Origin: an uncultured Bacteroidales bacterium
GTDB lineage: Bacteria > Bacteroidota > Bacteroidia > Bacteroidales > Paludibacteraceae
Assembly: GCA_900316995.1 (NCBI GenBank)
Contig: ONEZ01000013.1
Location: 20,426-84,425, forward strand
Direction of reading: 5' to 3'
Length of the DNA: 64,000 bases
This document shows positions 3,529 through 64,000 of this stretch, piece by piece; positions within the stretch are counted from its first letter, which is position 1; every line of letters starts with the position of its first letter. Both the position numbers and the translations under genes were made by a program. A model generated the notes under the pieces. The model ran no database searches. It was given only the letters and a program-made list of their open reading frames with translations, and was not told the DNA's origin.

Positions 3529-3540
3529 GTATTACTAAGA

Positions 3541-3591
3541 ATTTTCAACTATCAACTATCAACTGTCAACTGTCAACTGTCAACTGTTTAA
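3541..3591. repeat. Heptamer (TCAACTG/TCAACTA) tandem array
   Basis: Six to seven units of TCAACTR (RTTGA on the other strand) fill the pyrK-pyrD gap. The array runs into pyrK: its last residues T-V-D-S and its TGA stop are encoded by the repeat units. The same heptamer recurs in at least eight other gaps in the window. Confidence 0.85.
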
Positions 3592-4336
3592 CATTAAACA
3601 CCGGTCCGTCAGAACAAACGCACTTGTGCCCTTCTGTTGTCTTAGTAACGCATCCAAGACAGGCACCAAGACCGCACGCCATCATATTTTCAAGCGACAC
3701 CTCACAATCCGTACCTGATGCAATAGCTGCTTTTGCCACATTTTTCATCATCGGAGTAGGACCGCATACATACATACGGTCATATTTGGCATTTACAGCC
3801 TCATGATTCGTCACAAACCCCTTAACACCGTGACTGCCATCCTCCGTGGTCACAAAAACGCTTCCAATAGCCTTAAAATCGCTCAAATCAATCATATCAG
3901 ATTCATACTTGAATCCTAACAGGTAATTCACCTTAACGCCGTTACAACGCAATTTACGGCCCAAATATATAAGCGGGGCAATTCCCACGCCACCACCAAC
4001 AAGAAGCGCTGTTCCACTTTGAAGCAAAGTAAAACCGTTTCCCAGCGGCAAAAGCATGTTTAAGCGGCTGTTTTGTAACAATTTTGACATATATGCAGTA
4101 CCATCACCCACATTTTTGATTATTAGGGATAATGTGTTATTGCTATAGTCAACATCACTGATTGAGATAGGACGGCGCAGGTAAACAGAGGGGGTGTTTT
4201 CAACCTTTATCTCCACAAACTGCCCTGGAAGCATCTCAGGAAGCCTCTGGGAATGCGTAAGCACCAGCTTGAAGTAGGAACCATTAAGAGGAATATTCTC
4301 TAAAACCGTGCAGTTAAGTTCAAATTTCTTTAACAT
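3566..4336 (-). CDS. pyrK: Dihydroorotate dehydrogenase B, electron-transfer subunit
   Basis: FAD and [2Fe-2S] subunit that carries electrons from PyrD to NAD+. The 256-residue protein has a ferredoxin-reductase fold: the flavin motif YLRRPISI near residue 52, the nucleotide-binding GGGVGIAPL near 113, and CGPTPMM near 187. Near the C-terminus is the iron-sulfur ligand set C-G-L-G-A-C-L-G-C followed by C-V-C, typical of PyrK. The last four residues come from a tandem DNA repeat, so the natural C-terminus may have been altered. It is first in a pyrK-pyrD-DUF3078 unit with a perfect promoter at 4375-4406. Confidence 0.94.
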   Translation of the reverse strand: MLKKFELNCTVLENIPLNGSYFKLVLTHSQRLPEMLPGQFVEIKVENTPSVYLRRPISISDVDYSNNTLSLIIKNVGDGTAYMSKLLQNSRLNMLLPLGNGFTLLQSGTALLVGGGVGIAPLIYLGRKLRCNGVKVNYLLGFKYESDMIDLSDFKAIGSVFVTTEDGSHGVKGFVTNHEAVNAKYDRMYVCGPTPMMKNVAKAAIASGTDCEVSLENMMACGLGACLGCVTKTTEGHKCVCSDGPVFNVKQLTVDS

Positions 4337-4406: not shown

Positions 4407-4410
4407 ATAA

Positions 4411-4577
4411 ATGAACTATCTATTGCAACGTAAGGCTCAGCCCCTTTGTAAGGGGCTTCGGCCCTCCCATACGGGTCTGTGACCCTATGGGTCCTTTCGC
4501 AAGCGCCTTTTGGGCGGCGTGTTGGCATAATCCAAGCAAGCTTGGCTTCTGCCTTACTTATGCAACAGATAGTTCAT
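4411..4577. repeat. 167-bp structured element with ~26-bp terminal inverted repeats
   Basis: The ends are near-perfect inverted repeats: ATGAACTATCTATTGCA at 4411-4427 matches the complement of 4561-4577 with one change, and homology continues to TAAGGC. Between them lie several hairpins: CCCCTT/AAGGGG, a long CCCATA-c-GGGTC / GACCC-TATGGG stem, a GCC/GGC stem, and CCAAGC-aa-GCTTGG next to the right end. The last hairpin with its flanks (GCAGAAG before, ATTATGCC after, minus strand) is shared with the elements at 35101 and 54816. It looks like a MITE or a structured RNA gene; there is no ORF. It sits between the XRE gene and pyrK. Confidence 0.75.
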
Positions 4578-4584
4578 TGTATTA

Positions 4585-5019
4585 TTAATTAGATTTAAAC
4601 TCTTGGAAGGTGTTGTCACTATAATACACTACAATGCGCAAAATCTCCTTAGGCGGCAACTGATGTACAACCTCTTTAATAATAGTCTGTGGTTGAGGCT
4701 CTTGCGGAATAAAAACAGGCGAATTCTGAGGTTTTTGAGGCTCTGAGAATTCATTTTTTGGTTTTTCATCGTACTGTTGCCCGAATAAATCGCGCTGAAG
4801 AGCCTTCTCATTCTTGTACATTGGCTCTTTTCCAAGCAAAAGCCAATCAGGATTTATGTTAGGAAAAACAGTCATGATTTTTTGCAAAACAGGCACTCCA
4901 GGGTTGTTTCGTCCATTTAGGATATGAGAAATAGCCGATGGTTGGATACCAAGTTTAACCGCCAACTCACGTGGTTGCAGCTCCTCTTTTTCAAGAATTT
5001 TCTTAAATCTTTCTATCAT
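4585..5019 (-). CDS. XRE-family helix-turn-helix regulator
   Basis: A 144-residue DNA-binding protein. Residues 1-62 form an HTH_3 domain (ELAVKLGIQPSAISHILNGRNNPG is the recognition region, cut short here); then PNINPDWLLLGKEPMY, typical of Bacteroidetes XRE regulators of this type; then a Pro/Gln-rich linker and a short conserved C-terminal tail. Its 5' side opens onto 600 bp of AT-rich DNA carrying at least seven TTACA-NN-TGTAA-like sites, one of them only 33 bp from the start codon. I infer autoregulation; the target has not been shown. Confidence 0.85.
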   Translation of the reverse strand: MIERFKKILEKEELQPRELAVKLGIQPSAISHILNGRNNPGVPVLQKIMTVFPNINPDWLLLGKEPMYKNEKALQRDLFGQQYDEKPKNEFSEPQKPQNSPVFIPQEPQPQTIIKEVVHQLPPKEILRIVVYYSDNTFQEFKSN

Positions 5020-18137: not shown

Positions 18138-18200
18138 ATAATCGTGGAATCGGTTAATAGAAAAGACGATTCACCGCATCACCGATTAAACAATTAACCT
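18138..18200. repeat. Octamer (CGATTMAM) repeat array
   Basis: Degenerate 8-bp units (GAATCGGTTAAT; GATTCACCG; CACCGATTAAACAATTAACC) occupy the gap between the LysM gene and the barrel gene, reading first on one strand and then on the other. Nothing else is seen in this 103-bp gap. Confidence 0.7.
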
Positions 18201-20184: not shown

Positions 20185-20671
20185 GGCGTTTATATTTGAT
20201 GTTGATGGTGTCCTGTCGGCTTCTCTTATGAATATGGACGCAAACGGAACTCCTATACGCACTGCAAATGTAAAAGATGGTTACGCACTGCAATATGCCA
20301 TTAAAAGTGGCTATAAGGTGGCTGTGATAACAGGTGCTGACACCGCTATGATCCGTAACCGTTGCAAGATATTTGACATAGAAGACGTATATTGCAAATC
20401 ATCCAACAAAGTAACTGACTACGAGTGCTTTAAGAAGAAGCATAATTTATCAGACAGTGAAATCATTTACATGGGAGATGACCTTCCTGACATACCTGTA
20501 CTGCGTATGGTGGGAATATCTTGCTGCCCCGCCGATGCAGCCCATGAGGTTAAAGAAGTTGTAAACTACATTTCTCATCTCAACGGAGGCTGTGGCTGCG
20601 TACGTGATGTAATAGAACAGACAATGCGTGCGCAGGACAAGTGGATGACGGGAGATGTGTTTGTGTGGTAG
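20150..20671 (+). CDS. kdsC: KDO-8-phosphate phosphatase KdsC (HAD superfamily)
   Basis: Dephosphorylates KDO-8-phosphate to KDO for lipopolysaccharide inner core. The 173-residue capless HAD protein has FDVDGVLS (nucleophile Asp) near residue 16, VITGADT near 60, and GDDLPDIPVLR near 109 (metal-binding acidic pair), the tetrameric KdsC pattern. It is embedded in the DUF2520-kdsC-UbiA-maf cluster. The specificity is inferred from overall similarity; other C0-type HAD phosphatases are possible. Confidence 0.85.
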   Translation: MSNYKERLHKIKAFIFDVDGVLSASLMNMDANGTPIRTANVKDGYALQYAIKSGYKVAVITGADTAMIRNRCKIFDIEDVYCKSSNKVTDYECFKKKHNLSDSEIIYMGDDLPDIPVLRMVGISCCPADAAHEVKEVVNYISHLNGGCGCVRDVIEQTMRAQDKWMTGDVFVW

Positions 20672-20681
20672 TTAATCAGTT

Positions 20682-20714
20682 GACAGTTGACAGTTGATAA
20701 TTGACAGTTGACAT
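20682..20714. repeat. Heptamer (RTTGACA) array
   Basis: Five units (GTTGACA, GTTGACA, GTTGATA, ATTGACA, GTTGACA) begin 11 bp after the kdsC stop codon. They fill the 62-bp kdsC-UbiA gap. Confidence 0.8.
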
Positions 20715-20733
20715 TTAAACGACTCTACAAAAT

Positions 20734-27059: not shown

Positions 27060-27165
27060 TTGACAGTTAAGAGTTAAGAGTTAAAAGTTAACGTCATCCT
27101 GAGTGAAACGAAGGATCTCACGATTCACAGGTTCACCGATTAAACGATTAAACAATATACATCAA
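27060..27165. repeat. Composite repeat block between atpB and atpE
   Basis: Three repeat kinds in a row: RTTGACA/GTTAAGA-type heptamers (27060-27090), one CGTCATCC...GAAGGATCTC unit (27092-27119) and CGATTMAM octamers (27121-27155). No gene fits here. Same order as at 42963-43097. Confidence 0.75.
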
Positions 27166-34052: not shown

Positions 34053-35099
34053 ATGATTACAAAAGTTATACCCGAAGAGAGCATAGTTGAAACTATGAAT
34101 CTTATTAATAAGGCCGGCAAGATTGTAATAGTTGCTCACAAAAGGCCGGACGGCGATGCGGTTGGTTCATCGCTTGCTTTGTATCACTTTTTGTATTCAC
34201 AGGAGAAAGAGACAACTATAATACTTCCAGACGGCATTCCAGATTACCTGCAGTGCCTGCCTTGCGCTAAAGAGATTCTCAACTACGAGACTCAAGAGGC
34301 GGATGCAAGAAAGGCGATTAGCGAGTGTAACCTTATCTTTTGTCTTGATTTTAATGACATTAGCCGTATTGGGGAGCTTGCAGGTCCTATAGGTGAAAGC
34401 ACTGTGCCTAAAGTTATGCTTGACCATCATCTTCATAACAGTGGCTTCTGCGATGTAACCATTTCACACCCTGAGATAGCCTCCACAAGCGAGCTTGTAT
34501 TCCGCCTTATATGCAGAATGGGCTATTTCACAGAGATGTCATTAGAGAGTGCTGAGTGTATTTGCGCAGGCATGCTTACAGATACAGGTGGATTAACATA
34601 TAATGCGAACAGCCCGGAGATTTACTCCATAATATGTGAGCTGCTTAGAAAGGGTGTTGACAAAGACGCTCTTACAAGGCGCCTGTTTGACAACTACTCA
34701 GAGAGCAGGATGAGGCTTATGGGCTACCTGATGTACAAGAAGATGCAGGTGATGAAAGAGTATCAAACCGCCATACTCACCCTTTCATACGATGAGATGC
34801 TAAAATTCAACTACAAACCTGGCGACAGTGAAGGTTTTGTGAATATGCCGCTCACTATTGGCGATGTTATTTGCAGCATTTTCATCAAAGAGGAGCGTGG
34901 TGTTATGAAACTCTCATTCCGCTCACAAGGTAACTTTAACGTGAGCAAAATGGCCTCAGACCTGTTTGGCGGTGGCGGTCATTTTAACGCATCAGGAGCG
35001 GAAAGCAAGCTCAGTATGGAAGAAACAGTTAAGATAGTGAAAGAAGCTTTACCAAAGTATTACGGAGAGTATAGTGGAGAGTTGAGAATTGAGAGTTGA
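34053..35099 (+). CDS. DHH/DHHA1 phosphoesterase (NrnA-like oligoribonuclease/pAp phosphatase)
   Basis: 348 residues. The DHH domain has HKRPDGDAVGSS (about 30-41) and the name motif LDHHLHN (about 127); the C-terminal DHHA1 domain has GGGGHFNASGA (about 310). Family members degrade nano-RNA and 3'-phosphoadenosine 5'-phosphate, or cyclic dinucleotide products, in the cytoplasm. ATG at 34053 is preferred to an upstream TTG. The final residues L-R-I-E-S and the TGA stop lie in an RTTGAGA repeat array. Confidence 0.85.
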   Translation: MITKVIPEESIVETMNLINKAGKIVIVAHKRPDGDAVGSSLALYHFLYSQEKETTIILPDGIPDYLQCLPCAKEILNYETQEADARKAISECNLIFCLDFNDISRIGELAGPIGESTVPKVMLDHHLHNSGFCDVTISHPEIASTSELVFRLICRMGYFTEMSLESAECICAGMLTDTGGLTYNANSPEIYSIICELLRKGVDKDALTRRLFDNYSESRMRLMGYLMYKKMQVMKEYQTAILTLSYDEMLKFNYKPGDSEGFVNMPLTIGDVICSIFIKEERGVMKLSFRSQGNFNVSKMASDLFGGGGHFNASGAESKLSMEETVKIVKEALPKYYGEYSGELRIES

Positions 35100-35100
35100 A

Positions 35101-35188
35101 TTACGCAGCAAGCGAGAGCAGAAGTGAAACTTGTTTCAATTATGCCGAGCGAAGCAAGTAATCACAGAACAGCGAAGCTGTGACGTAA
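35101..35188. repeat. 88-bp structured repeat element, copy A
   Basis: Bounded by TTACG...CGTAA. Contains GCAGAAG, then the palindrome TGAAAC-tt-GTTTCA, then ATTATGCCGAGCG, and near its right end a second hairpin (TCACAG...CTGTGA, or ACAGC-gaa-GCTGT). A second 88-bp copy lies inverted at 54816-54903, with about 75 of 88 positions identical; the differences are concentrated in the first hairpin and keep it paired. Heptamer repeats flank it (…GTTGAA before, AATTGAAAATTGA after). No ORF. Confidence 0.85.
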
Positions 35189-35207
35189 AATTGAAAATTG
35201 AAAGTCA

Positions 35208-36419
35208 ATGAAACACATTATCATTTTAGGAGACGGAATGGCAGATGAGCCTATTGAAAGTTTAGGCGGAAAAACTGTAATAGAGGCGGCAAAAACGCCG
35301 TATATGGATATGCTTGCAAAAAACGGCAGGTGTGGAATGTTTGCAACAGTGCCTAAAGGGTTTAAGCCAGGCAGTGAGATTGCAAACATGGAAGTTCTGG
35401 GCTACAGCGTGGCACAGTGCTTTGAGGGCAGAGGTTCACTTGAGGCGGCAAGCATGGGTGTGGACATCAACCCTAACGAAATGGCCATGAGGTGCAATAT
35501 AATTTGCATCGCTGATGAGAAGATAAAGAACCACTCGGCGGGTCACATCTCTAATGAGGAGGCAAAAGAGATTATTGACTTCCTGCAGCAAAAGCTCGGC
35601 GATGACACGTTTACTTTCCACAACGGAATTTCATACCGTCATCTTTTAATAATGAAGGGCGGTGACAAGCGAATAATCTGCACCCCGCCTCACGATGTTC
35701 CGGGCACCCCGTTCCGCAGCGTAATGGTTAAAGCAGCCGTTCCAGAAGCGGAAGAGACCGCCCGCAAGCTCAATGAGCTGACACTAAAAAGCCAGGAGTT
35801 GCTAAAAAATCATCCTGTCAACCTTAAACGTATGGCAGAGGGTAAAGATCCGGCAAACAGCATCTGGGTATGGTCTCCAGGATACAAGCCAAGCATGCAG
35901 ACATTGGCGCAAAAATTTGGAATTAAGAGCGGCTCCGTAATATCGGCTGTTGACCTTATTAAGGGAATTGGCGTTTATGCAGGGCTGAAAAACATAGATG
36001 TGGAGGGTGCTACAGGTCTATATGACACTAACTATGAGGGTAAGGCACAGGCTGCTATTGACGCCCTTAAAAACGGTGATGATTTTGTATTTCTTCACGT
36101 GGAGGCAAGCGATGAGGCTGGGCATGAGGGTAATGTGGACCTTAAGGTTAAGACAGTTGAGTATCTTGACAGAAGAATCATAGGCCCCATATATGAAGCA
36201 GTAAAAAATTGGGAAGAACCAGTAGCCATTGCAGTTCTACCAGACCACCCTACTCCATGTGCAATAAAAACACATACGGCAAACCCAATCCCGTTCCTGA
36301 TATATTATCCTGGAATAGAAGCAGATGCCACCCAATGTTACAGTGAGAAAGAGGCTGCCTCCAAAGGAGGGTACGGACTGATTAAAGGCGATGAGTTTAT
36401 GAGAATCTTATTCAGTTGA
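35208..36419 (+). CDS. Cofactor-independent phosphoglycerate mutase/homoserine-kinase-like protein
   Basis: Alkaline-phosphatase-superfamily protein, 403 residues. GDGMADEP (about 8-15, metal Asp) and GSEIANMEVLG (about 56, nucleophile Ser) are present, along with EASDEAGHEG (about 306) and a C-terminal DHPTPC. Labelled apgM-type phosphoglycerate mutase in most annotations, but the family TIGR02535 was proposed to be homoserine kinase when it sits with threonine genes. Here thrC follows 93 bp downstream, which supports the threonine role. Which reaction it performs is not decided by sequence. Confidence 0.85.
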   Translation: MKHIIILGDGMADEPIESLGGKTVIEAAKTPYMDMLAKNGRCGMFATVPKGFKPGSEIANMEVLGYSVAQCFEGRGSLEAASMGVDINPNEMAMRCNIICIADEKIKNHSAGHISNEEAKEIIDFLQQKLGDDTFTFHNGISYRHLLIMKGGDKRIICTPPHDVPGTPFRSVMVKAAVPEAEETARKLNELTLKSQELLKNHPVNLKRMAEGKDPANSIWVWSPGYKPSMQTLAQKFGIKSGSVISAVDLIKGIGVYAGLKNIDVEGATGLYDTNYEGKAQAAIDALKNGDDFVFLHVEASDEAGHEGNVDLKVKTVEYLDRRIIGPIYEAVKNWEEPVAIAVLPDHPTPCAIKTHTANPIPFLIYYPGIEADATQCYSEKEAASKGGYGLIKGDEFMRILFS

Positions 36420-36505
36420 CAGTTGACATTTGACAGTTGACATTTATAACTTTCAATTATCAATTATCAATTTAATACGATTCACCGATTCAACAATTAA
36501 AAATA
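36413..36505. repeat. Composite heptamer/octamer repeat block
   Basis: RTTGACA units start in the last two codons of the apgM-like gene (AGT TGA is its stop), run to about 36445, then appear on the other strand (TCAATTATCAATT), followed by CGATTCAC-type octamers up to 8 bp before thrC. The convergent heptamers could fold into a hairpin. Confidence 0.75.
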
Positions 36506-42962: not shown

Positions 42963-43097
42963 CATTTGACAGTTGAGAGTACGTCATCCTGAGGACGCAG
43001 TCCGAAGGATCTCATAATGATTACGAGATGCTTCGCTACGTTGTACTACGCTCAGCATGACGAAACCGATTCACCGATTAAACGATTAAACGATTAA
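42955..43097. repeat. Composite repeat block with 81-bp inverted element
   Basis: RTTGACA heptamers (42956-42977), then an 81-bp imperfect palindrome (42982-43062) made of CGTCATCCTGAG...GAAGGATCTC and its inverted partner GAGATGCTTCG...CTCAGCATGACG, then octamers CGATTCAC, CGATTAAA x3 (43067-43096) directly before the kinase-ATPase ATG. No gene in between. Confidence 0.8.
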
Positions 43098-44876
43098 ATG
43101 CTTTTAAAAGAGAATGACATAATAGGTGGCTACACCGTAAAGTACCTTATCAAGGCGAGCGAATATGCCAGCAACTACCGTGTGGTAAACAGAGTGGGAG
43201 AATCTTTTTTCCTAAAACTGTTTGATATGTCAAAAATACCTGCGACTGCCGTAACAGATGGTATGCCTGATGAAATAACAGGCATCAGCCGCCTTAATCA
43301 TCCAAACATAATAAAGTTTATAGGGAAGGACTCATATACAGATTCTGACGGCAACGCATACCAGCTTCTTATAACTGAGTTCCTCAGCGGCATGTTGCTC
43401 TCTGAAATGGTGAGCAATGGGAAGCTGCTTGCAATAAATGAGGCACTACCCTACTATGCAGCCATACTGCAAGGGCTTGACTATATGCACACTACGCATG
43501 AACTTAATCATAATGACATTACACCTCGCAACATACTCCTGTCAAAAGATGGCAATGGCAAGGTTGTGCCAAAGATAATAGACCTTGGCCATATAGGGGA
43601 AAGTGCTATGGGCTGCCCTAAGTTTACAGTGTCAGACCTGAACCTACTGTATTGCGCACCAGAAACACTCTCTGGAATGTTCAAGCACACATCTGACATA
43701 TTCTCAGCCACAGCCGTTCTCTACTATATGCTAAAAGGTGTTGCGCCGTGGAATGTTGATTGCAGTAATGCAGGAAGTTTCCAGCAGAAGAAGGGTTTAG
43801 TGCGTGAGGCAAGAAAAAAAGAACTTGACCTAAGCGGCATTCCAGATGAATACAAGGAGATTTTCAAATACGGCCTTGCTCTTAACCCCGATGACAGAGT
43901 TAGTGTAAAAGACTTGCTTGGAATGATAGCATCGCCGGGGAGCTATAAAGGCAAAGGAAGCACCAATACAAACTCAAATGCAAGTTCCCATACAAGTGCA
44001 AACACAAACGCAGGAGCAAGCAGCACTGCTCAATCTGACAGCCAGAGAGACAGCGGCTCCGCACAGCAAGACGGAGGTGTGGAGATAAAGCGTAACACTG
44101 GCGGCGGTGGCGGTTTTAAGGATGTGGCTGGGATGGACAAACTGAAACAGGAACTCACAAACAGAGTAATCTGGATTATCAAGGATAAAGAGAAAGCAGA
44201 GAAATACCGCATAACACCTCCAAACGGAATGTTGCTTTATGGTCCTCCCGGATGTGGAAAAACATTTTTTGCAGAAAAATTTGCAGAGGAGTCTGGGTTT
44301 AACTATATGCTTGTGAACGGTTCTGACCTTGGCAGCACATATATACACGGCACTCAGGGCAAGATTGCGGAGCTATTTAAAAAGGCCAAAGCAAATGCCC
44401 CTATCATTGTGTGCTTTGATGAGTTTGACTCATTTGTACCGTCACGCCAGTCGCGCTCAGCCGAGCATCGTGCAGAAGAGATTAACGAGTTCCTTGCACA
44501 GCTTAACAACTGCTCCAAACATGGTATCTTTGTTATTGGCACCACCAATCTGAAAGAGATGATAGATCCGGCCATACTGCGTAAGGGCAGATTAGATTTA
44601 CAATATGAGATACCGGCGCCAGACCTTACAACACGCCACGCCATGTTTAAGATTCATCTGAAAGGCAGACCGCTTTCTGAAGACATAAGCATTGATGAAC
44701 TGGCTCAGAAGACAGAGGGTTACGCATCGTCTGACATTGCTTTTATTGTAAATGAAGCAGCCATGATGGCTGCGCTTGCCGATAGAAAAATAGAGCATCA
44801 GGATATTATTAACTCAATTAACTGCAACCCTTCTTCACTAAAAACAAATGCAAGGGCTAAGGTTGGTTACAAATAA
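43098..44876 (+). CDS. Protein kinase - AAA+ ATPase fusion
   Basis: 592 residues. Residues about 8-275 are a eukaryotic-like Ser/Thr kinase domain: Lys in SFFLKLFD (about 39), catalytic loop HNDITPRNILL (H-N-D for H-R-D, Asp and Asn intact, about 138), metal site IIDLG (D-L-G for D-F-G, about 160) and YCAPE (about 187). A Ser/Thr/Asn-rich linker (about 285-325) leads to an AAA+ module (about 335-575): GPPGCGKT, IIVCFDEFDSF, DPAILRKGRLD and the lid helices EGYASSDIAFIVNEAA. Resembles the 26S/FtsH branch of AAA. Followed by a YbjN-like gene. Confidence 0.85.
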   Translation: MLLKENDIIGGYTVKYLIKASEYASNYRVVNRVGESFFLKLFDMSKIPATAVTDGMPDEITGISRLNHPNIIKFIGKDSYTDSDGNAYQLLITEFLSGMLLSEMVSNGKLLAINEALPYYAAILQGLDYMHTTHELNHNDITPRNILLSKDGNGKVVPKIIDLGHIGESAMGCPKFTVSDLNLLYCAPETLSGMFKHTSDIFSATAVLYYMLKGVAPWNVDCSNAGSFQQKKGLVREARKKELDLSGIPDEYKEIFKYGLALNPDDRVSVKDLLGMIASPGSYKGKGSTNTNSNASSHTSANTNAGASSTAQSDSQRDSGSAQQDGGVEIKRNTGGGGGFKDVAGMDKLKQELTNRVIWIIKDKEKAEKYRITPPNGMLLYGPPGCGKTFFAEKFAEESGFNYMLVNGSDLGSTYIHGTQGKIAELFKKAKANAPIIVCFDEFDSFVPSRQSRSAEHRAEEINEFLAQLNNCSKHGIFVIGTTNLKEMIDPAILRKGRLDLQYEIPAPDLTTRHAMFKIHLKGRPLSEDISIDELAQKTEGYASSDIAFIVNEAAMMAALADRKIEHQDIINSINCNPSSLKTNARAKVGYK

Positions 44877-48120: not shown

Positions 48121-49464
48121 ATGAAGACTTTTAAATTAGGAGGCGTTCACCCCAATGACAACAAGCTATCAGCGGCAGTACCATTCAAAAAAGTTCCAGT
48201 GCCGGCAGAGGTGACCATTCCGCTTGACCAGCATATAGGTGCGCCTGCAACCGCCTGCGTGGCTGTGGGAGATAAAGTTAAGGTAGGTCAGACCATAGGC
48301 CAGCCTGGAGGATTTGTATCAGCGGCGGTTCACAGCTCAGTGAGCGGAACAGTGAAAAAAATTGACCGCGTGCGCGACGCCTGGGGCACCTACCACAACT
48401 GCGTAGTAATCAAGGTTGAAGGCGATGAGTGGCTTGAAGGTATTGACACCACCGATGCACTCATCACAGAATGTAACCTTGAACCCAAGCAGATAATTGA
48501 CAAGATAACAGCATCAGGCATCGTGGGACTTGGCGGAGCCTGCTTCCCCACCCAAGTGAAGCTTATGCCGCCAAAAGATTGCAAGATAGACACTCTTATA
48601 GTTAACGCAGTGGAGTGCGAGCCATACCTCACACACAACCACCGTCTTATGCTTGAAAAAGCTGACGAGGTGTTTGTAGGCGTGCAGATTCTGCTAAAGG
48701 CGTTAGGCATACGCAAGGCCATCATCGGCGTAGAGAATAATAAGAAAGACGCCATAGAGCACCTGAAGAGTCTGCTCCCAAAATACAGTAAAGAGTACGA
48801 CATCACCATATCGCCGCTGAAACTGAAATATCCACAAGGAGGTGAGAAACAGCTCATACAGGCGCTTACAGGCAGAGTGGTACGTAGCGGAGCACTACCA
48901 GCATCCACAGGAGCCGTGGTACAGAACGTAGCCACAGTGTTTGCCGTATATGAGGCAGTGCAGAAAAACAAGCCTATAGTGGAGATGGCAATGACCGTAA
49001 GCGGCAAGAATGTAAAAGAGCCAGGTAACTTTATAGTACGCATAGGCACACCGCTCACCGATGTGGTGAACATGGCAGGAGGCATACCAGAGGGTACCGG
49101 CAAACTTATATGCGGCGGTCCTATGATGGGACGCGCCATGATAAGCACAGACACACCTGCCAATAAACGAACATCAGGCGTGGTAATGCTGCCAAGCGAT
49201 GAAGCAAAGCGAGGCGTTGAAAGAAACTGCATAAGATGCGGCAAATGTATAGACGCCTGCCCTATGGGTCTGGAGCCATACCTGCTTGCCACCATGAGTG
49301 CAAAAAACATGAATGATGAGCTGGAGCAGCACTATATATATGATTGCATAGAGTGCGGCTGCTGCACTTTCACATGCCCAAGCAACCGTCCGCTCCTTGA
49401 TTACATACGTCAAGGCAAAGCCACCGTCATGGGCATAATGAGATCCAGAACCCCCAAAAAATAA
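48121..49464 (+). CDS. rnfC: Rnf complex subunit RnfC (NADH-binding)
   Basis: 447 residues. N-terminal barrel-sandwich-like part, NADH/FMN-binding region with GLGGACFPTQVKL (about 138) and GEKQLI (about 241), then two ferredoxin-like clusters CIRCGKCIDACP (about 366) and CIECGCCTFTCP (about 406). It passes electrons to NAD+. Next is a gap of 44 bp with CGATTCAC octamers. Confidence 0.96.
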   Translation: MKTFKLGGVHPNDNKLSAAVPFKKVPVPAEVTIPLDQHIGAPATACVAVGDKVKVGQTIGQPGGFVSAAVHSSVSGTVKKIDRVRDAWGTYHNCVVIKVEGDEWLEGIDTTDALITECNLEPKQIIDKITASGIVGLGGACFPTQVKLMPPKDCKIDTLIVNAVECEPYLTHNHRLMLEKADEVFVGVQILLKALGIRKAIIGVENNKKDAIEHLKSLLPKYSKEYDITISPLKLKYPQGGEKQLIQALTGRVVRSGALPASTGAVVQNVATVFAVYEAVQKNKPIVEMAMTVSGKNVKEPGNFIVRIGTPLTDVVNMAGGIPEGTGKLICGGPMMGRAMISTDTPANKRTSGVVMLPSDEAKRGVERNCIRCGKCIDACPMGLEPYLLATMSAKNMNDELEQHYIYDCIECGCCTFTCPSNRPLLDYIRQGKATVMGIMRSRTPKK

Positions 49465-49504
49465 CTCACGATTCACCGATTAAACGAATAACCGATTCAC
49501 CATA
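49465..49504. repeat. Octamer array before rnfD
   Basis: CGATTCAC, CGATTAAA, CGAATAAC, CGATTCAC in perfect 8-bp phase between the rnfC stop and the rnfD ATG. Confidence 0.8.
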
Positions 49505-49508
49505 AAAA

Positions 49509-51058: not shown

Positions 51059-51117
51059 ACCGGTGAATCGAAAAAACAAACAACTCGATTAACCGATTAA
51101 CCGAATAACCGATTAAC
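51048..51117. repeat. Octamer array between rnfG and rnfE
   Basis: GTGAATCG, GTGAACCG, GTGAATCG on one side (starting inside the rnfG stop region), then CGATTAAC x4 with one variant (CGAATAAC) in perfect 8-bp phase. The two halves are inverted with respect to each other, so the region can fold. Confidence 0.85.
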
Positions 51118-51127
51118 CATAAACACT

Positions 51128-51715
51128 ATGAGTAAACTAAAGATAATCCTAAACGGCATAATAAAGGAGAACCCAACCTTTGTGCTAATGCTTGGTATGT
51201 GCCCCACGCTTGGCACCACCACCAGCGCCATTAACGGCATGAGTATGGGGCTTGCCACCATGTTTGTACTTATATGTTCAAACATAACCATATCAGCAGT
51301 ACGTAATCTTATACCAGACAAGGTACACATACCAGCCTACATAGTTATAATAGCCACATTTGTTACTATTGTACAGCTATGTATGGAGGCGTACCTACCA
51401 TCGCTTTATGAGAGTTTAGGGCTTTTCATTCCGCTAATTGTAGTGAACTGCATAGTGCTTGGACGTGCAGAGGCGTATGCAGCTAAAAACGGTGTGTTTG
51501 ACTCCGCCCTTGACGGATTGGGAATAGGCATAGGGTTCACCTTAGCTCTCACACTGCTTGGCGCAGTAAGAGAGCTGCTTGGCTCAGGCAAGATTTTTGA
51601 CATCGTAGTATTTCCAGAGGACTACGGCATGATACTTTTCATACTTGCGCCAGGCGCATTTATAACACTTGGACTCTTAATAGCACTGAAAAACCATATA
51701 GAAAATAAAGTTTAA
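51128..51715 (+). CDS. rnfE: Rnf complex subunit RnfE
   Basis: 195-residue integral membrane subunit with six helices, homologous to RnfA. Features: NPTFVLMLGMCPTLGTTTSA (about 15-34), VNCIVLGRAEAYAAKNG (about 107) and the C-terminal FILAPGAFITLGLLIA. Part of the ion-translocating core. Confidence 0.95.
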   Translation: MSKLKIILNGIIKENPTFVLMLGMCPTLGTTTSAINGMSMGLATMFVLICSNITISAVRNLIPDKVHIPAYIVIIATFVTIVQLCMEAYLPSLYESLGLFIPLIVVNCIVLGRAEAYAAKNGVFDSALDGLGIGIGFTLALTLLGAVRELLGSGKIFDIVVFPEDYGMILFILAPGAFITLGLLIALKNHIENKV

Positions 51716-51788
51716 TTGAAAATTGAGAGTTGAGAATTGAGAGTTATTAACTTTCAACTATCAACTGTCAACTGTCAACTATCAACTA
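51716..51788. repeat. Heptamer arrays in both orientations between rnfE and rnfA
   Basis: RTTGAGA/RTTGAAA units first, then the complement TCAACTR x5 after a short AT-rich spacer. The facing arrays could form a long imperfect hairpin in the middle of the operon. Confidence 0.8.
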
Positions 51789-51791
51789 AAT

Positions 51792-52367
51792 ATGTTGCAC
51801 TACATTATAATTTTCATCGCCGCCGTATTTGTCAATAACATAGTACTGGCGCAGTTTTTAGGAATCTGTCCGTTCCTGGGTGTATCAAAGAAGATAGACA
51901 CAGCATTAGGCATGTCAGCCGCCGTGGCGTTTGTAATGGTGCTTGCCACCATCTGCACATATCTGCTCCAGAAATTTGTGCTTGATCCGTTTGGATTAGG
52001 ATTCCTACAGACTCTCTCATTCATCTTGGTAATAGCCGCTCTTGTGCAAATGGTGGAGATAGTTCTCAAGAAAGTATCCCCTGCCCTGTACAGCGCATTA
52101 GGAATTTTCCTGCCGCTTATAACCACAAACTGTACAATACTTGGTGTAGCCATACTTGTTATACAAAAAGACTTCACACTACTTGAGAGCGTGGTCTATG
52201 CACTGTCAACAGCAGTTGGTTTTGGTCTTGCGCTTGTGTTGTTTGCCGGAATACGTGAGCAACTACAGTTCTCAAAACTCCCTAAGGCTATGGAAGGCAC
52301 ACCAATAGCCCTTATAACAGCAGGCATACTTGCCATGGCGTTCATGGGATTCACTGGGATAGTTTAA
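51792..52367 (+). CDS. rnfA: Rnf complex subunit RnfA
   Basis: 191-residue, six-helix partner of RnfE. FVNNIVLAQFLGICPFLGVSKK at the N-terminus (family pattern), TTNCTILGVAIL (about 112) and GFGLALVLFAGIREQL (about 136) are typical. Last gene of the operon; a lipoprotein gene starts 34 bp downstream with no terminator I can see. Confidence 0.95.
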   Translation: MLHYIIIFIAAVFVNNIVLAQFLGICPFLGVSKKIDTALGMSAAVAFVMVLATICTYLLQKFVLDPFGLGFLQTLSFILVIAALVQMVEIVLKKVSPALYSALGIFLPLITTNCTILGVAILVIQKDFTLLESVVYALSTAVGFGLALVLFAGIREQLQFSKLPKAMEGTPIALITAGILAMAFMGFTGIV

Positions 52368-54815: not shown

Positions 54816-54903
54816 TTACGTCACAGCTTTGCTGTTCCGTGATTACTTGCTGCGCTCGGCACAATCTAAGTAAACTTAGCTTCTGCTCTCGCTTGCTACG
54901 TAA
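54816..54903. repeat. 88-bp structured repeat element, copy B (inverted)
   Basis: Same length and ends (TTACG...CGTAA) as the copy at 35101-35188 but in the opposite orientation. The first palindrome reads CTAAGT-tt-ACTTAG where copy A has TGAAAC-tt-GTTTCA. RTTGACA/TCAACTR arrays flank it on both sides. Confidence 0.85.
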
Positions 54904-54953
54904 TTCAACGGTCAACTTTCAACTGTCAACTATCAACTGTCAACTATCAACTG
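54904..54953. repeat. Heptamer array before phoH
   Basis: TCAACGG, TCAACTT, TCAACTG, TCAACTA, TCAACTG, TCAACTA, TCAACTG: seven units in phase, ending 11 bp before the phoH ATG. Confidence 0.85.
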
Positions 54954-54963
54954 AATAAATACT

Positions 54964-63665: not shown

Positions 63666-63717
63666 ATTTCTGTTACAACACGTAAATAGTTGTGTTTCAT
63701 CCTGTTTCTCATATTGA

Positions 63718-64000
63718 GATGTAACAGAATATCAAAGATACAAAATTTGAAAGCAAATCACAACTTGGGTGTACGACAGTGCTAAGGTGTACGGGATGTA
63801 ACAGAATATCAAAGATACAAAATTTGAAAGCAAATCACAACAGCCGGCATGGAGAACTTCAATGAGTTTGGGATGTAACAGAATATCAAAGATACAAAAT
63901 TTGAAAGCAAATCACAACAGTGAATAACGGAGATATTGACCCGCTCAGGATGTAACAGAATATCAAAGATACAAAATTTGAAAGCAAATCACAACGGATG
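63718..64000 (-). CRISPR. CRISPR array (47-bp repeats, 30-bp spacers), start only
   Basis: Four identical 47-bp repeats at 63718-63764, 63795-63841, 63872-63918 and 63949-63995, with three 30-bp spacers that differ from each other; the array continues past the window. On the minus strand the repeat starts GTTGTGATTTGC and ends TGTTACATC, the pattern of Bacteroidetes type II-C repeats (46-47 bp). No cas gene is in view. The minus strand is the likely crRNA strand: repeat polarity, a promoter-like motif in each repeat, and the terminator at 63633-63665 all agree. Confidence 0.93.

Follow-up and report, generated by a model that had tools for sequence, protein, structure and literature searches.

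The DNA analyzed here (the window) is a stretch of 64,000 nucleotides from a 2.15-Mb genome that is 83% complete (G000), and it contains three exact matches to the pattern GCAGAAG-N14-ATTRTGCC, here called the core pattern. Two of the matches lie in 88-bp elements, A and B, and the third lies in a larger composite element that lies 6 nt past the stop codon of a gene at 4585-5019 (minus strand). Element A is flanked by genes of the DHH family and for phosphoglycerate mutase. The features are listed below; G306 is the genome of a sister species of G000.

4410-4578, minus strand: composite (class 2) element with outer arms, core module, P hairpin and GCCCC hairpin
4410-4427, unstranded: outer arm of the composite, AATGAACTATCTATTGCA
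4561-4578, unstranded: opposite outer arm, TGCAACAGATAGTTCATT, complementary to 4410-4427 except at one position
4466-4491, minus strand: P hairpin, CCCATAGGGTCACAGACCCGTATGGG on the minus strand
4524-4552, minus strand: core module of the composite, GCAGAAG-CCAAGC-TT-GCTTGG-ATTATGCC
35077-35100, plus strand: heptamer-type direct repeats left of A, GAGAGTT GAGAATT GAGAGTT (a single GAGAATT in G306)
35101-35188, plus strand: element A, 88-bp form with basal stem, core hairpin and second hairpin
35100-35162, plus strand: basal stem of A, in which ATTAC (35100-35104) pairs with GTAAT (35158-35162) in the direct sequence
35118-35146, plus strand: hairpin at the core of A, GCAGAAG-TGAAAC-TT-GTTTCA-ATTATGCC, whose stem contains two G.A mismatches
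35169-35181, plus strand: second hairpin of A, ACAGC-GAA-GCTGT, in the direct sequence and also in the DNA fold
35189-35207, plus strand: heptamer-type direct repeats right of A, AATTGAAAATTGAAAGTCA (missing from G306)
54816-54903, minus strand: element B, 88-bp form with apical stem CTAAGT/ACTTAG
54858-54886, minus strand: core hairpin of B, a match to the core pattern
54904-54959, minus strand: heptamer array adjoining B, TCAACTN units on the plus strand (14 nt shorter in G306)

A first-pass annotation of the window had reported three versions of one hairpin, and their sequences and coordinates proved exact, the third being CCAAGC-TT-GCTTGG at 4524-4552 on the minus strand. The flanks GCAGAAG and ATTRTGCC are indeed kept in all three, as the three exact matches indicate, and we verified that four of the six apical pairs are changed on both sides between A and B. 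The earlier observation is confirmed and understates the extent of what is present.

Anatomy of the two classes

Elements A and B represent class 1, in which the core hairpin sits atop a basal stem and is followed by a second hairpin whose loop is GAA or AAA. The apical, basal, and second stems each vary in sequence from copy to copy with complementarity largely kept; basal stems read ATTTTAGC/GCTAAAAT, ATTTTGAC/GTCAAAAT, or CAATTTG/CAAATTG, and second hairpins elsewhere read AAGGC/GCCTT, ATTAC/GTAAT, or GTTGC/GCAAC around a GAA or AAA loop. Swapped flanks served as the control for the basal flanks (54 representatives of 220 flank pairs): basal flanks were more complementary on average, and just 9 of the 54 representatives lay above the 99th percentile of the control. 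The single-strand folding z-scores of A and B were modest (−1.0 to −2.5 as RNA and −1.3 to −3.1 as DNA), so folding by itself would not have revealed the family.

The 5′ basal arm is similar to the sequence CAAAKATAGTG at seven loci from several other genera (L227, L228, L237, L239, and L241 to L243). The complement of that sequence resembles the Bacteroidetes −7 box, TAnnTTTG, and at L227 an ATG occurs approximately 25 nt downstream of the arm, on the strand of the −7-box-like complement.

Class 1 elements are set among direct heptamer repeats, not long palindromes. Heptamer arrays of the TTGACAG type occur in the window at 3538-3599, 20668-20721, 36408-36452, 51747-51801, and 54904-54959, and G306 lacks the stretch 51696-51788. 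A second family of tandem units, 8 bp long (CGATTAAA / CGATTCAC), is found at 532-568, 18167-18198, 27121-27152, 43059-43106, 49456-49506, and 51084-51120. The window ends in CRISPR-like direct repeats at 77-bp spacing (63707-63997), and similar repeats are present on contig C72 of G306.

Class 2 elements carry several hairpins in one composite, of which the core may be one module. The P hairpin is common to composite copies that were selected by having it.

A high-copy repeat of Bacteroidales

Allowing up to three mismatches, the core pattern occurred 10 times in the window against 3.88 expected (standard deviation, 1.91), and none of 100 shuffles reached 10. Further copies, on which the first-pass annotation had made its proposal depend, were found across G000: the pattern matched exactly 15 times and the reversed pattern, a control, 0 times, and a covariance model (R1) identified 31 copies. 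BLAST searches of G000 returned 26 matches with element A and 55 with a longer relative at locus L009. Contig ends C5, C7, C23, C26, and C33 of G000 all lie in, or within approximately 150 bp of, elements, which suggests that the repeat interrupts the assembly.

R1 was then searched in genomes of the genus, family, and order, with 150 candidates scored per genome in the genus and family searches. In the 16 genomes of the genus set, taken in the order G000 and G295 to G309, copies numbered 31, 66, 31, 12, 37, 40, 113, 0, 105, 54, 10, 4, 5, 35, 0, and 1. Nine further genomes of the family were searched, of which one had 3 copies and eight had 0. At the level of the order, where up to 22 candidates were scored per genome and high counts are therefore lower bounds, 57 of 295 genomes had at least one match, such that the search of Bacteroidales genomes proposed in the first-pass annotation does recover further copies.

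A pattern scan of genome contigs yielded at least 115 stretches with the core, and the stretches listed contain 126 cores, whose apical arms form 59 distinct pairs. Among the titled matches listed, 79 of 80 bear the name of a Bacteroidales or Bacteroidetes taxon, and one is titled Ruminococcus flavefaciens; a viral collection has 2 stretches. Carriers include isolates such as Proteiniphilum acetatigenes DSM 18083 and Dysgonomonas sp. 520. By a simple ORF call, 126 of 164 occurrences at the loci examined lie between ORFs, and some copies are in tandem at a spacing of 71 to 95 bp. In some other genomes, cores lie near tRNA genes (L084 and L117).

Covariation of the core stem

The core consists of 6+5 pairs, two mismatches, and a TT loop, with near-invariant internal-loop letters (GAGAGC-AGARN ... 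RYTATGCCGA) and stems that vary freely yet remain complementary. GAGAGC, TT, and TGCCGA were imposed by the scan pattern, which also restricted other columns, so that none of these columns is a test; the six apical pairs were left free and the pair at columns 12-29 was partly free. Covariation was measured in 105 distinct cores aligned without gaps, 13 of them from G000. Paired cells amounted to 96.3% versus 79.5% in shuffles, cells changed on both sides numbered 258 versus 86, and the covariation score was 0.514 versus 0.194 in shuffles and at most 0.092 with slid partners. These three of the five measures exceeded all 500 shuffles and all slides, in tests that kinship of the sequences inflates. 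Over the same 105 cores, the remaining two measures were not above shuffles: pairs showing double changes numbered 9 versus 8.0, and pair types 25 versus 24.1. The mismatches within the stem are also constant in place: columns 13-28 hold G.A in 70 of 105 cores and A.G in 11, and columns 10-31 hold G.A in 96 of 105.

Double changes thus keep pairing beyond both shuffles and slides, as in a covarying structured element of either RNA or DNA. The first-pass annotation had allowed that the arms might diverge without keeping their pairing, and with 96.3% of cells paired they do not. We conclude that the core defines a real and large covarying palindromic repeat family, which takes its place among small palindromic dispersed repeats.

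The core hairpin as a probable movable module

To compare orthologous sites, we used G306, in which the genes flanking site A are 82 to 84% identical to those of G000. G306 has neither element A nor its heptamer arrays; the flanking genes overlap there at ATGA, and other members of the genus carry other, unrelated heptamer arrays at this site. Site B holds an identical 88 bp in both genomes. The G306 orthologue of the composite at 4410-4578 has the same outer arms and carries another hairpin (CGTCTCCACCCGCGGAGACG...) instead of the core module. Another orthologous site holds a coreless composite body in G306, and in G000 the same palindrome encloses core modules; the full arrangement in G000 we infer from pieces on two contig ends. 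The L017 site is occupied in G306 by a plain, terminator-like 15-bp hairpin with arms unrelated to those of G000. The elements at L023 and L025 are absent from G306, and their arms were uninformative. L014 was rejected as an empty-site test, as its downstream region is not syntenic in G306. The differences between the two genomes may represent gains in G000 rather than losses in G306. The core hairpin appears to act as a movable module, both between genes and within larger nested hairpins.

Most composite elements have locus-specific arms

Inverted flanking arms scoring at least 24 were present at 20 of 23 composite bodies from G000 and G306, the other three being without clear arms. To be counted among the 23, a body from the loci examined in the two genomes had to carry the P hairpin, a definition that excludes L022 (32-nt arms without a P hairpin). 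The 23 bodies are not all independent, as 7 of them have related arms in common. As a control, arms were swapped among the other 16 bodies, and 2 of 240 swapped pairs reached 24. One was L301 with L030, which scored 59 and in which both loci represent the same orthologous site; the other was L309 with L028, which scored 24, the threshold itself.

The origin of one arm could be read at L032. There, the arms span approximately 42 alignment columns and score 40 in G000 versus 12, the chance level, in G306. Collinearity of the right flank with G306 extends as far as nqrF (name from NCBIfam), and the left arm is that right flank written backwards, with a few mismatches, up to the edge of the hairpin after nqrF. 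The arm at L032 thus repeats, in inverted orientation, older DNA next to it. G306 keeps GAGCCCGA, which also forms the last letters of the L032 body, beside the L032 arm. The retained letters may be microhomology or a deletion relic, and the G306 site may be a deletion product, not a truly empty site. Two other loci are suggestive of inverted flank copying: at L031 (the end of a shikimate-pathway gene) and at an opposite-orientation copy upstream of alaS in G306, one arm lies inside a reading frame, with a weak alignment in each case. L032 is the only locus at which it is clear which way the inverted copying went.

That the L032 arm is a backward copy of its flank favors template-switch (snap-back) synthesis. 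In such a mechanism, a nascent strand at a hairpin would leave its template, copy a hairpin module, snap back to copy its own freshly made flank, and then return to the template. Snap-back synthesis would give rise to the locus-specific inverted arms around composite copies, and the same switching could re-match both arms of existing stems. The reading that we favor, and rate at about an even chance of being right, is that this is a REP/MITE-like family of Bacteroidales, made up of dispersed, non-coding DNA palindromes that insert and change via replication template switching. The first-pass annotation had attributed the kept pairing to selection or to a copying mechanism; copying is supported at one composite locus, L032, and the switching chemistry and its part in the core stems we infer. 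Possibly, though we advance it tentatively, the repeats are mobile DNA free of a transposase: hairpin modules would jump and nest by template switching at forks, backward copies of flanks would make new site-specific palindromes, and stems would stay matched. The strongest new feature is a palindrome that differs at each composite site, for which template switching is supported at one locus and is presumed at the others.

Structured RNA as an alternative

A structured RNA, such as an mRNA leader or 3′ end, a terminator, or a small RNA, could also have stems that covary, by selection on RNA pairing, and could have spread as paralogues. The strong covariation would suit such an RNA, as would the terminator-like hairpin of G306 at the L017 site. 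So too would position, as a stop codon lies within 54 nt at 12 of the 13 composite loci of G000 (the exception being L021) and an arm overlaps a gene end at 6 of the 13. Across those 13 loci, however, stop codons are found on either side of the composite body, which therefore has no fixed sense relative to the gene. Element orientation leans toward the strand of the flanking genes, 44:17 (p = 7e-4, uncorrected for relatedness), in favor of RNA. Against it are a range from 0 to 113 copies within one genus and the modest RNA folding z-scores of A and B. Rfam models gave no match to the elements at the gathering score across the window and nothing relevant among 13 loci at E values up to 1. Kink-turns and other named motifs, considered for the GAGA/CGA loop, did not fit.

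Base-pair types point in both directions. In the core arms, 906 pairs (8 of 159 39-mers with fewer than three of six arm pairs being left out) comprised 849 Watson-Crick, 19 G-U, 10 A-C, and 28 other pairs, with p = 0.14 for G-U against A-C. The G-U share was 2.2%, versus 9.4% in tRNAs from the same loci (70 of 742 pairs in 34 tRNAs), and the share alone is comparable between the two, as ARAGORN brackets may favor allowed pairs. The low G-U content weighs against RNA selection of the ordinary kind in the core and is in keeping with pairing at the DNA level or with the copying of arms. Conversely, G-U to A-C was 17:3 in the outer arms of composites, a count in which loci are not independent and shared arms recur; in an alignment of cores (A1), the ratio was 30:3 in the two basal pairs and 14:10 outside them. 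The ratios of 17:3 and 30:3 argue against a purely DNA reading, and the outer-arm excess points to some selection on RNA pairing.

Of the structured RNA suggested in the first-pass annotation, a classic RNA gene is disfavored by the copy-number dynamics, the Rfam results, and the scarcity of G-U pairs, while the outer-arm pairs and the strand lean still speak for RNA. We consider structured RNA rather unlikely. Any host role, putatively as a terminator or 3′-end hairpin by virtue of position near stop codons, would be secondary.

Transposases as agents of spread

If the elements were MITEs whose transposase targets palindromes such as terminator loops, the arms would preexist at the target. 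Insertion sequences that target REPs have been published (PMC1525189), composite copies are located at gene ends, and the window contains five perfect palindromes of 11 to 16 bp with short loops, some of them intergenic and accompanied by A and T tracts. Those palindromes could serve as targets, but the arms differ from locus to locus, the G306 hairpin at L017 has arms unrelated to the G000 arms, and the L032 arm copies a flank that is not palindromic in G306. Constant terminal inverted repeats were not found, the outer arms being locus specific save for one shared-arm group, and no constant target-site duplication was seen by eye, class 1 being set in heptamer arrays. We regard insertion of a MITE into ready-made palindromes as quite unlikely.

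If a Y1 transposase (RAYT/IS200-type) recognized the folded single strand and mobilized REPs or REPINs in trans, these would likewise be small, high-copy, mostly intergenic palindromes, sometimes in tandem, with stem mismatches at constant places, and Y-TT-R and GNA loops fit DNA mini-hairpins. The Y1_Tnp domain was not found in G000 at its 83% completeness, however, and occurred in 2 of the 16 genus genomes (2 of the 14 with copies), namely, G299 with 40 copies and G303 with 54; it was absent from the three richest (113, 105, and 66 copies). Among order genomes with at least 10 scored copies, 10 of 12 lacked Y1_Tnp, versus its presence in 203 of 295 overall, a depletion with Fisher p = 2e-4, uncorrected for the fact that some of the 12 are congeners. 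Moreover, GTAG was found within 8 nt 5′ of just 7 of the 126 cores listed, and CTAC within 15 nt 3′ of 0 of the 126. The search for a partner enzyme, confined to Y1_Tnp, found none. The first-pass annotation had offered a structured RNA, a REP-like transposase target, or a DNA cruciform, and is borne out in part: dispersed REP-like DNA fits best, given the copy number, the site without the element, and the modularity, and the transposase part fares poorly, since Y1_Tnp is missing from most carriers tested. We conclude that Y1/RAYT is unlikely to be the agent of spread, and mobilization of this kind is, in our estimate, very improbable.

Meaning and comparison with known systems

Covariation is usually the best evidence of a functional RNA, and here covarying stems are found in a dispersed DNA repeat of which at least one stem arose by copying a flank backwards. 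The repeat is widespread in Bacteroidales and matched by no Rfam model here, and it could be misread as RNA. Under the template-switch reading, the family would provide a large natural set, with many events in related genomes, in which template switching can be tested against selection as the source of perfect stems. No description of a GCAGAAG-N14-ATTRTGCC family was found in the open-licence PMC literature searched.

The family is a high-copy short intergenic palindrome, like the REP/REPIN/BIME sequences associated with RAYT, with which it shares many copies, some in tandem, and stem mismatches. It differs in that its stems vary freely, its modules are nested, and its arms are locus specific. 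Since the defining features of REP/RAYT (Y1_Tnp and the adjacent GTAG) are largely wanting, the elements are REP-like in behavior and fall outside the REP/RAYT system. Nesting mobile hairpin modules are also known as the double-hairpin elements of fungal and algal mitochondria, which belong to other genomes and are likened here by description, not by sequence.

CGTC-tagged REPs are described as palindromes without a dedicated transposase, in Bacteroidetes among others, and are similar to the present elements in that respect (PMC3733652). By that description, their stems are 8 to 9 bp and almost always begin with AT, and their loops are mostly 4 to 5 nt (PMC3733652), unlike the 6+5 pairs, two mismatches, and TT loop of the core, and CGTC lies within 12 nt 5′ of 1 of the 126 cores listed. 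The second hairpin has CGTC adjoining on the other strand but has a 5-bp stem and a 3-nt loop. Sequences similar to CGTCATTCTGAGCG, resembling CGTC-tagged REPs, occur in the flanks of L047, L055, and L057.

The BrickBuilt MITE of Porphyromonas gingivalis is likewise an intergenic repeat of Bacteroidales but is set apart, by description, by its tandem 23-nt units and small inverted ends (PMC4596501). The heptamer arrays resemble the TAACTGA heptanucleotide direct repeats, which are intergenic, occur in some Bacteroidetes among others, and for which polymerase slippage is cited as one cause, but have other units and flank hairpin elements (PMC4679880).

Template switching can create and maintain hairpins, as described for rRNA and microRNA genes, and accounts for multibase compensatory change (PMC8794818). 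The present elements resemble such mutations in the inverted copying of adjacent DNA and in perfect stems that could be made in a single event, and they differ from the cases described there in that copying here goes together with a dispersed repeat and with the insertion of a hairpin body (PMC8794818).
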